Shown: piece after piece, positions 14,515-49,366 of the stretch
Position numbering within the stretch: the first letter of the stretch is position 1
Layout of the letters: each line of letters starts with the position of its first letter
Assembly (NCBI GenBank): GCA_024276075.1
Contig: JAJRXX010000051.1
Coordinates: forward strand, 1 to 64,000
Direction: 5' to 3'
Length of the DNA stretch: 64,000 bases
Source of the DNA: Planctomycetota bacterium
GTDB taxonomy: Bacteria; Planctomycetota; Phycisphaerae; Phycisphaerales; Phycisphaeraceae
Made by a program: the position numbers and the translations under genes
The notes under the pieces: generated by a model
Seen by the model: the letters and a program-made list of their open reading frames with translations, nothing else
Told to the model about the DNA's origin: nothing
Database searches by the model: none

Positions 14515-16656
14515 AAGACGTGTATCCCTGTTTAATTGTCGGCGGCGGGTTACGATCAGGCCTAAGAAGGTTACGAGCATCGCGGTGGTCGGCTCGGGCA
14601 CAACGGAGATAGACCCGGTGGTCAGCAAAGACGACGTGTCGAATGACAGCCCGCCGGCGAGTGAGGGGAGATTAATCGCGTCGAATGTCCCGGTCAGTGA
14701 GCCGAAGTCGAGCAGGTCAAAGGTATCGCCAAAGGTAGGAGCAAAGTTGTTTAGCAATTGGATGTCGAGTGTACCGTCGGCTGCGAGGTTGCCGGTGATG
14801 TTGAGATGGTCGTATTCGGTGCCGAGTGTTGTGCCGGCGAGTTCGAGGATGAGTGTTGCGGCTGTCCCGAGCGATACGTCGCCAGTGATCTGAACATCGG
14901 AGGGGCTATCGCCTGGGCTGTAGGTGCCGTTGAAGGTGATCAGGTTGCTGGTGCCGCTAAAGTTGGCGCCGCCGGAGACGAGCCCGTTGTTAAAGGTGAC
15001 GGTGCCTGCGACGTTGATGGTGGACCCGGCGGGCGAATGCACGTCGCCGTTCACAGTCGCGTTGATCAGGTTGAGTGTGCCGAGGTTGGTCAGTCCGTCG
15101 GCGTTGTTTCCGCCACCGGAGGTGGGTATCCCGTCGCCTGCGAAGGTGGCTGTGGCATTGACTAGCGTTAATTCGCCAGAGGTGTTGTTTGTCATGGCGT
15201 CGGTGTAGGTTAGGGAGCCGTTTATGACACTGATCTGCCCGTTGTTTGTGCCACCCGCGGCAGAGAAGCTCGCTGTCGAGCCGTTGATCAGCAGTTGCCC
15301 GCCGGCGTCGACGTTTCCGGTGGCGTTGGTCACGTTTACAGCCATGCCCGGTTGGAGGACCAGCGTTGATCCAAGCAGTCCCGCAGCCCCAATGGTCAGG
15401 CTGGAATTGGTGAGGTTTAGCGTTCCCTGGTCGAAGTCGAAGGTGCCAAGAATGTTGAGCGACCCGGTCGAGAGCGTTCCGCCGTTGAGTGCGAGTCGTT
15501 CGCCGGCGATGATCGTGGAGGTTCCGGTGACCTCGAGGGTGTGTACGGAGGTGATTTCGGGTGTGGCCCCGAACATGGCGATGGTCGTAGCGTCTAAAGT
15601 AAGGCTGCTGTTGAACTGGAGTGTGCCGGCGTTGAAATTAAAAGTACCTCCCGTTGTGTTCAGTAATTGGGCATTCGTGAATGTGCCGGTGTTTAGATTA
15701 AGTATTCCTCCCGCTGAGAGGTCTATCAAGTCTGCGGTAGGGTGTGTGCCGCCGTTGAGATTGACGGTGCCGGGGCTCCAGATTTTGAGTGTATTGACGA
15801 CTGAGACGTTCGCGCCGGTGTTGATATTGAGGATGCCGGAGTTAGCGAAGGTTGCTTGAGCTGTATCACTACCCCCGACGTAGAGGCTGTCTGTGTTAGT
15901 CCAGGTTGAGTTGGTGACGGTGACGGTACTGGGGTTAGTGAGGTCGGTCTGGCCGATCTGGCCGATCTGGCCGATGGCACTGTTGACGGTCCTACCGTTT
16001 TCGATGTTCAGCGTGCCTGAGCCGTCGGAGCCGACGACAAGCTGATTGGCGGTGGTCAATTTTGAATTGGTCCCGGTGACGGTGACGATGCCAGTGGAGC
16101 CGCGGCTAACTCCGAGGATCGTATCGCTGTTGCTGGTGACGGCGCCGCCGTTTTCGATGTTGAGCGTGGCTGATCCTGCGGAGCCGACGAAAAGCTGATT
16201 GGCGCTGGTCAATTTCGAATTGGTCCCGGTGACGGTGACGATGCTGATGGAGGGTAGGCTATGTCCGAGGTTGATACCGCCGTTGCTGTTGACGGCCCCG
16301 CCGTTTTCAATGTCCAGCGAGCTGGTGTTGGGTACGCCAAATAGTAGGACTAGGCCAACATTCAATGAGGAAAGACTGGTCGAGAGGGTATCCCAGGTGG
16401 CGCCAGCGCCCTTGACGGTGACAGAAGATTGATCGAAGAGGGTACCATTAAGACTGGTGACGCTCGTTAGGCCGTTGCCGTCTGTTGTGTTATCAATCAG
16501 CAGCTCGCCGGTGGCGGCAAGGCCTATGGACAGGGTTTGGGTGGGGAGGATGGTGGTCGGGTCGGGGGAGACGTTGCCGATCGTGATGACATCGGCGTGG
16601 GCGAGGGGCGTCGATAGCGCGGCTATAACGGCGAGAGGTCGTGCGAATCGTGGCAT
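14512..16656 (-). CDS. PEP-CTERM sorted surface protein with beta-strand repeats
   Basis: A 714-residue secreted protein. The signal peptide is MPRFARPLAVIAALSTPLAHA, which fixes the start at 16656 rather than a longer in-frame option at 16701. The body consists of repeats such as VTVTGTNSKLTTANQLVVGS followed by GTLNIENGG, resembling the T5SS/PEP-CTERM-associated repeat, expected to form a beta-helix. The C-terminus VVPEPTTAMLVTFLGLIVTRRR is a PEP-CTERM tail (PEP motif, membrane segment, basic cluster) recognised by an exosortase, which is not in the window. Eight residues follow the Arg cluster and end at a TAG provided by repeat D1. Low-complexity Gly/Thr/Asn composition. Likely envelope or matrix protein. 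Confidence 0.9.
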   Translation of the reverse strand: MPRFARPLAVIAALSTPLAHADVITIGNVSPDPTTILPTQTLSIGLAATGELLIDNTTDGNGLTSVTSLNGTLFDQSSVTVKGAGATWDTLSTSLSSLNVGLVLLFGVPNTSSLDIENGGAVNSNGGINLGHSLPSISIVTVTGTNSKLTSANQLFVGSAGSATLNIENGGAVTSNSDTILGVSRGSTGIVTVTGTNSKLTTANQLVVGSDGSGTLNIENGRTVNSAIGQIGQIGQTDLTNPSTVTVTNSTWTNTDSLYVGGSDTAQATFANSGILNINTGANVSVVNTLKIWSPGTVNLNGGTHPTADLIDLSAGGILNLNTGTFTNAQLLNTTGGTFNFNAGTLQFNSSLTLDATTIAMFGATPEITSVHTLEVTGTSTIIAGERLALNGGTLSTGSLNILGTFDFDQGTLNLTNSSLTIGAAGLLGSTLVLQPGMAVNVTNATGNVDAGGQLLINGSTASFSAAGGTNNGQISVINGSLTYTDAMTNNTSGELTLVNATATFAGDGIPTSGGGNNADGLTNLGTLNLINATVNGDVHSPAGSTINVAGTVTFNNGLVSGGANFSGTSNLITFNGTYSPGDSPSDVQITGDVSLGTAATLILELAGTTLGTEYDHLNITGNLAADGTLDIQLLNNFAPTFGDTFDLLDFGSLTGTFDAINLPSLAGGLSFDTSSLLTTGSISVVPEPTTAMLVTFLGLIVTRRRQLNRDTRL

Positions 16657-17019
16657 GGTGGGCTTACTCCGTTCCTGGTGTGCTGAACTTTTAGGCTGCA
16701 CGATCGGGAGGTTTGATAAAAGGAAAATGCGGCAGGTCGGTGGCGTGCCCCACGCACTTTGCGGCCCAAATCCTTCTCCTTGAGCATGGCGCCTTAATAT
16801 GGTGCCTTATTGTAGAGCCGGAGAGCCCGAAAGCCAAGGATTAATTACAGGAAACGCCGCTGTTATCGACGGAAAGATCGCGGTTCGTGGTTGGTGGCTG
16901 ATAGGGGTTTGGGTACGAAAAACAACCTCGACTCTAAGCCAAGGTTATTCGCACATTACAGTTATTCGCACGCCACCAAAGCGGGTAGTGGTTACGAACC
17001 CGAATCTAGCTGTGCCTGT
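16657..17019. other. Intergenic region upstream of the first PEP-CTERM gene
   Basis: About 360 bp that must hold the promoter of the minus-strand PEP-CTERM gene. The GGAG about ten bases before its ATG is the ribosome site. No gene, repeat family or clear -35/-10 pair could be assigned. Confidence 0.5.
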
Positions 17020-33759: not shown

Positions 33760-36700
33760 TTACCTACAGCGACGACGGCGTGCCAACATCAGCATGCCAC
33801 ATAATGCGAGCACCGCGCCGCTGGCGGGCTCGGGGATGGTGGAAGCATTTGTTGATAAGCCGGTGCTGCTGAAAAGGCTTCTCACATCTCCCCCGAAGTT
33901 TGTCAGCAGCAAGCTCAGGTCAGCGTCGTCGACGATGCCATCCCCGGTAAAATCGCCCGCGGTCCATGCGGCGCCAGCATTACCAAAATTAGTCAGCAGC
34001 AGACTCAGGTCAGCGTCTTCGACCCGGAGATCAAGGTTCGCGTCGCCGGGTAGCGTGGTAAACAGCGTGAGCGTGTCGGGCGCCGCGGCGAAGGGCGTGG
34101 CGGCAAAGAGCGAATCGCTGTTACCCGGGAAGTCATACACTGGCGCCAACGCGAGGTCGGTCTGTAGAGCGAGAATGGAGTTGTTGAGGGTGGTCTGATT
34201 GTACGTGCCGGTGCGTGAGGCGTATGTAAGGATCGTAAAGGCGTTGCCGTAGGCGGGTGTGAAGGCGGTGGGATCGACAACCTGGATGTCGAGTGTCCCG
34301 CCCAGCGAAACGCTTTGGGTAGCAACGACCTTGTCGTATCCGGTGCCCGCGGTGGTGCCTTCGATTTCGATGATCGTGGTTGAGAGCGGACCGAAGCTGA
34401 CAGGGCCGCCAAAGGTTGACGTGCCTGGACTCGAGCCGGGCGCGAGGTCGCCGTGGATGAAGACGGTGCCGTTGCCGGGGTTTCCACCGTTGTACGAACC
34501 GAAAAATACCGCCTTCGATCCGATATCGACTTGGAGCGTGACACCGGCACCGGGGCCGTTCGTGACGTCGTCGGAGAAAAGTACGTTTGAATTTCCGCTG
34601 ATGAAAATGGAGCCGTTGTTTGCGATATCACCCGCGGCGAACGTGGCGTTTGAGAACGCGACGCCGATCGAGCCGTTGTTGATAATGGGACCCGAAAGCG
34701 TGGCGTCGGCGAATCCGACGTTGACCAAGCCGTTGTTGGTAAGCCCACCGTTGAATTGCAATGATGCGCTGCCGCGTGCGTCGATGCGCGCGGTGGAGTC
34801 GTTGGTGAGCCCCTGCTGAAACTCGATTGTAGCCAGCGCGTTTTGACCGTTCACGTCGATGCGTCCAGCATTCGTATTGGCGGCGGCTGTGAATAACAGG
34901 CGGTCATTTGCGCGGACATTGATTTTTCCGGTGAGCTGGTTTGCGAGCGGCGCATCAATTTGCCCTGTGCCTTCGAGTGTCCCGGTGTTTGTGAACGAGG
35001 TGCCGGTAATACGGCCCAAAGGATTGCTCATGGTAATTCGGCCGGCGTTTGTGAGTGTGGCGCCAGCGTTAATTGTGGCCGAGCCGATGGTGGCGCGTGC
35101 GGTAGAGCCGACGGTGATGCCGTTGGCTGCGGATACGAGGCCCGAGGACGCTTGTAGCAGGGCATTTGAGCCGGAGATGTCGATGGTGTTGGCGACAATG
35201 TCGCCGCCGTCGAGGGAGAGCGAGGAGAAGAGGAAAAGTGTGGCGTTGGCGTCGAGCCTTCTGCCGGTAAGGAGTTGGCGAAATTGGCCTAACACCGCGT
35301 CAAGCAATAGATCAGTGGCGACCATATTGTTTTCGAATGTGAGTTGTCCAGCATTGAAGTTGAATGTTCCGCCAAAGGTAATAAGCGAGTCGAGTAAGAG
35401 TGTTCCACCGTCGAGGTTGACGGTAGCACCTGCGCCTATCTGTAGCGAGTTGTTGGAGGTAACGGTGCCGCCGGTTTTGATGTTGAGCGTGGCGTTGCCG
35501 CCTGTGGTACCGAGGAAGATTTGTCCGCCAGCAGTGAGGCTAGAGGCGGTGCCCGCAACGGTGACGGTGCCTTCGGAGCTGTCCAAGTTGCCTACGATGA
35601 CGTTGGAGACAGAAAGTGATGACCCGCCTGTGATATCGAGGGCTGCGCGTTTGGTGTTGGCGACGGTAAGTGTGGTTGCGGCAAACCCCGTGCCGGTGGC
35701 ACCCGCGGCCATATGTAGCGTGGGCAGATCGGTGTCGTCGGCGCCGTCGATGGTGAGGTTGGCGAAGGAGTTGTTGAAAGTTCCACCATTGATTTTCAGG
35801 GTGCCGTCGGTCCAGTTGAGGTTGCCCGTGCGTGTGAAGGATTGAGCGGTGATGGTCCCGCCGTCGAAGTTAAGCGTGCCGACCTGTGCGCCGTTGGGAT
35901 CGTTGATACTCAGTGAGCCGTTAATGGAGACGTCCGCACCGTCGGAGACGTTGAGGGTGCCTGTGCCGCCGCCAACGACGCCAGCGACGATGGCGCTGCC
36001 GTTGTTCGACCACTGTGTGCCTTGCCCGCGTACGGTGAGGGTGCCGACGGCGGTGGCTTGGTTACCGATCCTCGCGGTGCTCACGGTAGATAGTTGCGCA
36101 CCGTTTTCGACGGTGAGCGTGCCTGTGCCGGAGGCCCCGACGGTGAGTGAGCCGGTTGCTGCGACGCTCGAGCCGGGGTCGGAAATGGTGGCGGCGCCTT
36201 GGCTGTTGGTGAAATTGGCGATGGTGAAATTACCACTGGTAACCGTAGCACCACCGCGGACGGAGAGCGTGCCGTGGCCCGATCGCCCGACGAAGAGTGT
36301 GAAACTGTTGTCCCATCTGGAATCGGTGCCGCTGACAGAGACGCTCCCGACGCTGTCCACGGAATTAGAGGCGATGTTTCCACTACTGCTAGTAACCACC
36401 CCGCCACTGGAGATGGTCAGAGACCCGTTGCCGAAGCCGCCGACATTCAGGTTGCTGTTGAGAGACCATGTGGAGTCCGTGCCGGAGACTTGGACTTTGC
36501 TCGTGCTGGATGCAACGTTGGCGATCGTGGCGAAACTCGTGGTGGACACCGATCCACCACCAAAGATATTGAGTGTGCCGTTGCCACTGTTGCCGATCGT
36601 CATGGTGCTGGTGAGAGACCATATGGAACCGATGCCTGTGACGGTGGCAGTGCCTGTGGAGCCTGAGCTTGAGCCGATGACGGTGAATCTGGTATTGGCG

Positions 36701-37368
36701 TCGCCGCCGTTTTTGATGGTAAAAAAGCCGCTACCGCTGCTGCCGATGAATATGTCGCCGAAACCGGGGCTGCCCAGTGTGCCTCCGGTGGAGACCGTAA
36801 GGTATCCGATGGCGGTTGGGGTGGTGCCAAGTCTGATGTCGTCAAGGGCAGAGTCCGTGGTCAGCGTGCCGTCGGTGATGGTGAGCCGACCGGTCTGGTT
36901 GGTTGTATCGCCTATGTCCATGCCGAGTGTGCTGGTTGTGGTGTAGGTGTTTCCGTTGAGGTCGAAGGTGACCTTGCCGTTTGAGATGTCCAGGGCGAAA
37001 TTTGTAGTCGTGCCCACAAAGACGGTGTAGGTGTCGGGTAGCGTGAAGTTGGCAACGTCTGTTGCCACGGGTATGGACGCGCCGGCACCACCGCCGTCGA
37101 AGAGGGACCAGTTGCTGGTGGAGGTGAACGAGCCGCCGTTGGGATCGATCCAGAAGCGGTCTGCGGCGAGTGCGGGTGAGGCGAGCGCGGTGAGCAGCGC
37201 GGCAGCGATGGTGACGGTGACCCAGGGGTTGGGGCATACGCACTGGCAGGCAAGCTGCCAGTGGCACCCGAGCGTGGGCTTCGGGGTGATGATGGGGCCC
37301 CGCGCATTGCGATGCGTGGGCTTCAATGTGGTAATGGGGGTGGCTGCGAGGTGGGCGTGGGTGGTCAT
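33760..37368 (-). CDS. PEP-CTERM surface protein with beta-repeats and dockerin-like pair
   Basis: A 1202-residue secreted protein. The signal has an unusually long n-region (about 50 residues) before the hydrophobic core TVTIAAALLTALASPALA. The body has many T5SS/PEP-CTERM-type repeats (for example VTVAGTASSLTAGGQIFLGT followed by GNATLNIKTGG). Near the end (about 1106-1160) are two dockerin-like calcium loops, GDANLDLRVEDADLSLLLTN and GDFTGDGIVDDADLSLLLTN. The tail IPEPASGAVLALCGMLMLARRRR is a PEP-CTERM sorting signal. ATG 37368 with GGAGAGAG upstream is preferred to an in-frame start at 37458. Part of the n-region is encoded by a repeat-like palindrome (37241-37271). Probably an outer surface or matrix protein. 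Confidence 0.9.
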   Translation of the reverse strand: MTTHAHLAATPITTLKPTHRNARGPIITPKPTLGCHWQLACQCVCPNPWVTVTIAAALLTALASPALAADRFWIDPNGGSFTSTSNWSLFDGGGAGASIPVATDVANFTLPDTYTVFVGTTTNFALDISNGKVTFDLNGNTYTTTSTLGMDIGDTTNQTGRLTITDGTLTTDSALDDIRLGTTPTAIGYLTVSTGGTLGSPGFGDIFIGSSGSGFFTIKNGGDANTRFTVIGSSSGSTGTATVTGIGSIWSLTSTMTIGNSGNGTLNIFGGGSVSTTSFATIANVASSTSKVQVSGTDSTWSLNSNLNVGGFGNGSLTISSGGVVTSSSGNIASNSVDSVGSVSVSGTDSRWDNSFTLFVGRSGHGTLSVRGGATVTSGNFTIANFTNSQGAATISDPGSSVAATGSLTVGASGTGTLTVENGAQLSTVSTARIGNQATAVGTLTVRGQGTQWSNNGSAIVAGVVGGGTGTLNVSDGADVSINGSLSINDPNGAQVGTLNFDGGTITAQSFTRTGNLNWTDGTLKINGGTFNNSFANLTIDGADDTDLPTLHMAAGATGTGFAATTLTVANTKRAALDITGGSSLSVSNVIVGNLDSSEGTVTVAGTASSLTAGGQIFLGTTGGNATLNIKTGGTVTSNNSLQIGAGATVNLDGGTLLLDSLITFGGTFNFNAGQLTFENNMVATDLLLDAVLGQFRQLLTGRRLDANATLFLFSSLSLDGGDIVANTIDISGSNALLQASSGLVSAANGITVGSTARATIGSATINAGATLTNAGRITMSNPLGRITGTSFTNTGTLEGTGQIDAPLANQLTGKINVRANDRLLFTAAANTNAGRIDVNGQNALATIEFQQGLTNDSTARIDARGSASLQFNGGLTNNGLVNVGFADATLSGPIINNGSIGVAFSNATFAAGDIANNGSIFISGNSNVLFSDDVTNGPGAGVTLQVDIGSKAVFFGSYNGGNPGNGTVFIHGDLAPGSSPGTSTFGGPVSFGPLSTTIIEIEGTTAGTGYDKVVATQSVSLGGTLDIQVVDPTAFTPAYGNAFTILTYASRTGTYNQTTLNNSILALQTDLALAPVYDFPGNSDSLFAATPFAAAPDTLTLFTTLPGDANLDLRVEDADLSLLLTNFGNAGAAWTAGDFTGDGIVDDADLSLLLTNFGGDVRSLFSSTGLSTNASTIPEPASGAVLALCGMLMLARRRRCR
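37241..37271. repeat. Family F-like palindrome within the PEP-CTERM coding region
   Basis: CACTGGCAG-GCAAG-CTGCCAGTG followed by GCACCCGA matches, base for base except five positions, the centre of repeat F (49264-49294, other strand). On the minus strand it is read in frame as GCHWQLACQC of the signal n-region. Confidence 0.7.
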
Positions 37369-37472
37369 AGCTCTCTCTCCGGCCCGGTTGCGGCGGGCGG
37401 TTACGTGGCTGGATAATAGACGTTCATCACGAGTGGTGCCGACGGGGAGTGGGCACAAACTCCACTGCTGTC

Positions 37473-49228: not shown

Positions 49229-49366
49229 TAGAACTCATCCCAAAACCCCCGATGGGGGTTGAATCGGGTGCCACTGGCTGCTTGTCAGCCAGTGTAAATG
49301 ACGAAGATTTATACCGGTGGATCAGTTGTCGGTGGTCTTTTTGTTTGGGTTTTGGGATAGGTTCTA
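49229..49366. repeat. Element F (138 bp) with 20-bp terminal inverted repeats
   Basis: Ends TAGAACTCATCCCAAAACCC and, on the other strand, TAGAACCTATCCCAAAACCC (18 of 20 identical). Inside: AACCCCC-GAT-GGGGGTT and CACTGGCTG-CTTGT-CAGCCAGTG palindromes. The second resembles the centre of family D and the palindrome at 37241. Confidence 0.9.

Follow-up and report, generated by a model that had tools for sequence, protein, structure and literature searches.

GTAG-tagged REPs of planctomycetes have been described, as have class 3 Y1 transposases whose feet are CnGA (PMC3733652, PMC6006769). In Rickettsia, proteins with an N-terminal RPE-1 repeat are reported to be expressed in vivo, and N-terminal intragenic REPs are mostly thought to be non-coding, both according to PMC3733652. 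Here we describe a repeat of this type that lies in frame within the leader of a PEP-CTERM protein gene, in a 64,000-nucleotide window (the whole stretch that was analysed, G000:C44:1-64000) of a planctomycete genome of 2.88 Mb in 77 contigs.

The gene occupies 33760-37368 on the minus strand and encodes 1202 amino acids from its most likely start codon, an ATG at 37366-37368 (-). A GGAG Shine-Dalgarno-like site (37377-37380, -) is found 8 bases 5' of this ATG; such sites of at least 4 bases precede 10.7% of the ATGs of the window by chance. The protein carries T5SS/PEP-CTERM repeats (TIGR04393) and a C-terminal sorting signal, where TIGR02595 was over its cut-off at 33769-33837 in a profile search, and both hallmarks of PEP-CTERM proteins are present, namely an N-terminal signal peptide and, at the C-terminus, a tail with PEP, hydrophobic and Arg-rich parts. 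The signal peptide has a hydrophobic core that starts with WVTVTIAAALL, residues 49-59 (37192-37224, -, by hydropathy), and its predicted cleavage site is ALAA/D. Counted from ATG 37368 with an 11-residue hydropathy rule, the n-region measures 48 residues, close to the "about 50" that an earlier note on this DNA had given. An alternative in-frame start, a TTG without a Shine-Dalgarno site at 37324-37326 (-), lies at the edge of the second repeat described below and 34 residues from the core, as against 48 for the ATG with GGAG. A start downstream of the palindrome was also sought: no in-frame ATG, GTG or TTG was found between the repeats and the core, but an ATG was detected out of frame at 37235-37237 (-), directly 3' of the REP. 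The window holds another PEP-CTERM gene of the TIGR04393 kind at 14536-16806 (-), with an ordinary short signal peptide (MPRFARPLAVIAAL).

The palindrome, CACTGGCAGGCAAGCTGCCAGTGGCACCCGA when read at 37241-37271 on the plus strand, does encode the peptide GCHWQLACQC in frame, as had been proposed from the sequence: the peptide corresponds to codons 34-43 of the ORF from ATG 37368 (37240-37269, minus strand), that is, to the repeat plus the next base. At 37241-37270 (-) it is a REP-type element, CGGGTGC-CACTGGCAG-CTTGC-CTGCCAGTG, recognised by its repeat family, a covarying stem and a predicted stem of 9 bp. A chance match is ruled out by the copy counts, since a 17-mer of the REP gave 3 matches in the window at up to 3 mismatches vs 0.31 expected, a 14-mer gave 42 matches in the genome vs 2 for the reversed control, and the 28-base consensus GGTGCCACTGGCNGCTTGNCNGCCAGTG was found in 40 genome copies at up to 2 mismatches vs none for the reversed control. 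These 40 copies, together with the linkage to RAYT genes reported below, support the suspicion that the palindrome is of a mobile type. REP was present in 13 of 61 genomes (our own and 60 relatives), and the matches in other genomes were in Planctomycetota, mostly Phycisphaerae. The ends of the element are sharp in 176 copies from other planctomycete contigs, where conservation begins with GGGTG and stops at GCCAGTG, the conserved foot being GGGTGC; an unpaired GTAG or CGTC tag at the REP end is absent from these copies, which have GGGTG instead. Stem pair 12-20 covaries (GC in 126 copies, AT in 26, TA in 17) and is paired in 172 of the 176. In the relatives, copies are often paired in inverted orientation with some 20 bases between them. 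Folded as RNA, the window copy by itself was unexceptional against shuffles (z -1.32).

The segment at 37241-37271 is identical to that at 49264-49294 in 28 of 31 positions, and of the three mismatches, two concern a single stem pair, with A-T in one segment and T-A in the other. The second segment is the centre of element F, a 136-bp inverted-repeat element, AGAACTCATCCCAAAACC ... GGGTTTTGGGATAGGTTCT (49230-49365, +), with its REP at 49265-49294. The match to the centre of F that the earlier note had pointed out is therefore real, but the shared and mobile unit is the RAYT-linked REP of about 30 bp and not F. In fact, element F is a separate inverted-repeat element carrying the REP inside. 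Both of its ends are found at 12 of the 40 distinct REP copies (copies with identical 12-base flanks were merged to reach 40, with at least L009 and L013 dropped), and in the 12 complete copies of F the inner inverted-repeat motifs enclose about 121 bp. F was rejected as the insert in the window gene, because its ends and tail are absent at 37241-37270 and only the REP core is common to both.

Four Y1_Tnp matches were found in the own genome. The gene at C65:38368-38946, whose product is probably a REP-associated tyrosine transposase (RAYT), is flanked by a REP (+) at 39 bp on its lower side and by an inverted REP (-) at 23 bp on its upper side; Pfam Y1_Tnp is over its cut-off, and the best NCBIfam match is NF047646 (E 5.3e-20, 71.8 bits, under the cut-off of 80). 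Among 30 RAYT loci fetched from the own genome and the 60 relatives, REPs lay within 400 bp of all six RAYTs at 47-100% identity, on both sides in five, and of none of the 24 more distant ones (28-42% identity); a shorter 14-mer with 1 mismatch matched near one distant RAYT (L268). The REPs flanking the RAYT of one relative (G004) differ on both stem sides. All five genomes with a RAYT at 47% identity or more are REP-positive, as are 8 of the remaining 56, and five out of five would be expected by chance about 2 times in 10,000 if the genomes were independent, which they are not. The C65 RAYT may have mobilized the REP, although a close RAYT is absent from 8 of the 13 REP-carrying genomes.

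A Y1_Tnp (IS200-like transposase) domain was also observed in frame in a valyl-tRNA synthetase of the same genome (G000:C71:16087-16554; L036, L299). The domains tRNA-synt_1, Y1_Tnp and Anticodon_1 lie in one frame in the own genome and in the five relatives scanned with Pfam (L300, L301, L304, L305, L306), and a sixth relative (G048), outside that scan, has the Y1_Tnp domain in a 1373-aa frame. The domain looks old and kept, and nothing on a valyl-tRNA synthetase with Y1_Tnp was found in our literature search.

REP is accompanied in the leader by a second repeat. Hairpin A, GAAGCCCACGCAT-CGCA-ATGCGCGGGGC (37297-37324, -), is a dispersed palindrome that encodes most of KPTHRNARG, and a half copy of it, GAAGCCCACGC (37272-37282, -), abuts the REP. 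The arm GAAGCCCACGCAT matched 65 genome sites with no more than 1 mismatch vs 4 in the reversed control, mostly as the left arm of a hairpin, and hairpin A abuts the REP in L010, L017 and L018 as well. The extension of the n-region is made of two repeat families, REP and hairpin A, and about 22 of its 48 residues are repeat-derived. At other sites, such as L187-L215, a second hairpin, TTAGCCACGGGTGAT..CACCCGTGGCATC, often comes some 30 bases or less after hairpin A, and a CGTCAGGGAGCGGGCC-like stretch often lies 5' of hairpin A, forming a modular repeat array.

The promoter region and GGAG-GCTATGACCACCCAC are common to the window, C26:447 and C64:2108. The leader with its REP is thus not confined to the window gene: it is also found in a paralogue on contig C26 and, as an orphan, on contig C64. 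A family-wide PEP-CTERM leader is unsupported, GGAG-ATGACCACCCAC being found at three loci in the own genome and in none of the 60 relatives. The C26 gene has the promoter, GGAG, ATG, hairpin A and REP of the window gene. Its PEP-CTERM protein matches the window protein at 38% over 345 residues of the C-terminal part, and its N-terminal domain differs (DUF7453 / NxxGxxAF). The C26 frame (L237, G000:C26:112-2924; 339-910) runs through three REPs, three copies of hairpin A and the right half of F. The terminal inverted repeat of F, GTTTGGGTTTTGGGATGGGT, encodes VWVLGW in this frame, and part of the C26 hydrophobic core thus appears to come from the F end, so that repeats would have built the n-region of this protein and some of its h-region.

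Hairpin A lies 45 bases from the ATG in the window gene, 45 in C26 and 39 in C64; these distances are divisible by 3, as are the spacings of 156 and 114 bases between the three C26 REPs. Apart from one indel region, C26 and C64 differ in their first codons by three substitutions, which are synonymous third-position changes (CAC/CAT, ACT/ACC, ACG/ACA). Between the leaders of the two paralogues, the only conserved residues are MTTH and KPTH; since C26 and the window gene read the REP in different frames, the REP-encoded peptide is not conserved. The leader frame of C26 is open in 10% of shuffles, whereas that of the window stretch is open in 64% of shuffles of the same length and composition, and for this reason the open frame in the window was rejected as a proof of translation. 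If translated from the leader ATG, the C26 n-region would count about 168 residues, a great length for a signal that is cleaved off. On C64 (L016, minus strand near C64:2108) the leader reads MTTHTHRTK... and reaches a TAA directly 3' of the REP, after which a broken element F comes; no PEP-CTERM gene was found in the 182 codons read on after this leader (nearest C64 match, 24,824).

Long n-regions are exceptional among comparable genes. From 42 other PEP-CTERM loci over the cut-off, 40 were fetched and both a start and a core were found in 35, where the nearest start lies at most 23 residues before the core; C26 is among the five unmeasured loci, since the scan covered 170 residues and its core lies further on. 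In the 60 relatives, no match to the window protein begins before query residue 45, leaving its first 44 residues unmatched there. The two best homologues, moreover, have no such extension, their short n-regions being MRHFILTLF and MHKVKLAAC, each with its own Shine-Dalgarno site (AGGAGG and AAGGAGGT). The proposal that a mobile palindrome had become coding sequence and had lengthened the n-region is thus partly supported, by the mobile type of the repeat, its in-frame position, the short n-regions of the two best homologues and the lack of an ATG, GTG or TTG between palindrome and core, but has to be widened to include a second repeat family. The REP probably gives the window protein an unusually long leader peptide.

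REPs were found in frame in a few other genes. Within the own genome, the window copy and the three in C26 are the only ones of the 40 distinct copies to lie in PEP-CTERM-ending ORFs; those of L010 and L018 lie in N-terminal extensions, the genes concerned having plausible starts further on, and six further copies lie in ORFs of 133-177 aa that were judged by eye not to be genuine. That intragenic REPs are common in this genome is therefore unsupported. In other planctomycetes, 71 of 177 REPs lie under an ORF of at least 200 aa, and most such frames look spurious. A Pfam scan of five picked REP-bearing ORFs recovered domains in L073, L141 and L144 and none in L061 and L101. L073 (3-3098, -) has its in-frame REP at residue 618 of an SMC protein, inside the Pfam hinge (535-673), and L144 (310-3822, +) at residue 898 of a hybrid histidine kinase, within its ATPase region, with HATPase_c at 911-986, kinase profiles on both sides and REP-like pieces in which ATGATGSL is repeated. 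The REPs of these two genes, both from other planctomycetes, are not misplaced starts, and cells therefore tolerate REP in proteins. The case of L141 is ambiguous: this cytochrome has two REPs, as a pair, separating its n-region from its core, but its start could be a GTG that the REP itself contains.

Our explanation of the locus, in which we have moderate confidence as a whole, is that REP and hairpin A were inserted in an ancestor, are translated in frame and are tolerated as an n-region of 48 residues. A RAYT would be expected to spread the REP in single-stranded form, and the two repeats would have landed downstream of the start codon and upstream of the signal core in a gene ancestral to two or more PEP-CTERM genes of the own genome. 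Translation would begin at ATG 37368, which has GGAG before it and is kept in the paralogue, and would read both repeats in frame, a step that, taken by itself, seems to us reasonably likely; the product would be a signal peptide with a 48-residue n-region, and the residues before ALAA/D should be removed by signal peptidase. The insertion may have been tolerated, and may be nearly neutral, because the frame in use meets no stop codon within the repeats and the part before the cleavage site would be discarded. The chief weaknesses of this explanation are the 64% of shuffles with an open frame and the ATG at 37237; the different REP frames of the window gene and C26, the length of the C26 n-region, the stop on C64 and the published view of many N-terminal REPs as non-coding (PMC3733652) also speak against it. 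A different account places the true start after the palindrome, at ATG 37237, with a one-base error in the assembly or a recent frameshift, and takes the REP as ordinary 5' untranslated DNA. This ATG adjoins the REP, and the removal of one C from the C-run at 37231-37234 puts it in frame and opens MPNPWVTVTIAAALLTALASPALAA, a perfect-looking short signal peptide. Moreover, short n-regions are the rule in the PEP-CTERM genes of the own genome, L249 and L257 starting with MPRF and the core, and according to PMC3733652 the majority of N-terminal REPs are non-coding in several species. We nonetheless regard this account as unlikely, as it requires an extra event, error or frameshift, and ATG 37237 has no Shine-Dalgarno-like purine run before it, the REP occupying that space, whereas ATG 37368 has GGAG and a leader common to two other loci.

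The leader could also be a regulatory 5' region, in which a short upstream ORF (MTTH...) and the hairpins modulate transcription or translation and the gene starts at a non-standard codon. The sharing of promoter region, GGAG, ATG and hairpins by three loci would suit such a role, as would the C64 ORF ending directly 3' of the REP and the hairpins folding as predicted. A promoter scan of the leader gave one weak promoter-like site. However, no terminator-like site was found in a scan of the leader, the 141-base leader folds no better than shuffles (z -0.81), and in two of the three loci the frame continues into the signal peptide with no canonical start after it, which makes a regulatory leader quite improbable. 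Perhaps least credible, and in our opinion very improbable, is a functional extension comparable to type V autotransporter signal peptides, with repeat residues selected to slow or target secretion: the T5SS-associated repeats of the protein and the long leader common to two paralogues speak for it, but no Pfam family matched the window protein, which thus has no known extended-signal domain, the paralogues conserve no leader residues beyond the two short motifs and differ in REP frame, and homologues elsewhere do without it. Ancestral insertion followed by in-frame translation therefore remains the explanation that we prefer. Going beyond it, secretion signals in this lineage may be built in part from mobile hairpins, with C26 having obtained its n-region and part of its h-region in this manner and the window gene representing an earlier or simpler stage; this is offered tentatively, as a doubtful generalization.

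Several aspects of the locus matter beyond the gene itself. A RAYT-linked REP family with an unusual tag exists in Planctomycetota, and the window gene offers a clear case for testing signal peptides, which are cleaved off, as safe landing places for mobile repeats. C26 would go further, the end of a repeat being read there as hydrophobic core. If translated, both genes show a low-cost entry of non-coding mobile DNA into proteins. In the literature covered, most subscription journals lying outside it, no publication was found that deals with a REP tagged GGGTG or with PEP-CTERM signal peptides containing REPs, and a search for PEP-CTERM together with palindromic repeats returned only unrelated titles.

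Compared with the described systems, the element resembles most the REPs and REPtrons associated with RAYT, or TnpA-REP (PMC3733652, PMC8266576, PMC6006769). As in these, the palindrome spans about 30 bp and has a 5' tag left unpaired, it occurs in tens of copies per genome and in inverted pairs about 20 bp apart in relatives, and inverted copies lie on either side of a RAYT gene. Its tag is GGGTG plus C, whereas those of known REPs are given there as GTAG, GT[AG]G or CGTC; our REP, found in Planctomycetota and mainly in Phycisphaerae, is outside the GTAG and CGTC superfamilies. Element F is similar to miniature inverted-repeat elements (MITEs) in its 12 complete copies with inner inverted-repeat motifs, but differs from them in its central REP. 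Like the Rickettsia palindromic elements (RPE) and intragenic REPs, as portrayed in PMC3733652, our REP lies in frame inside protein genes, N-termini included. A repeat in frame in a genuine gene, as in the RPE type, was found in the window gene, C26, L073 and L144, absence of the repeat from homologues being established for the window gene only. Unlike the RPE, it belongs to another repeat family, lies in the n-region of a secreted PEP-CTERM protein, adjoins a second repeat family and is common to paralogues. The window case is thus a new example of a process known in other bacteria, in which the repeat family is new and the site unusual.
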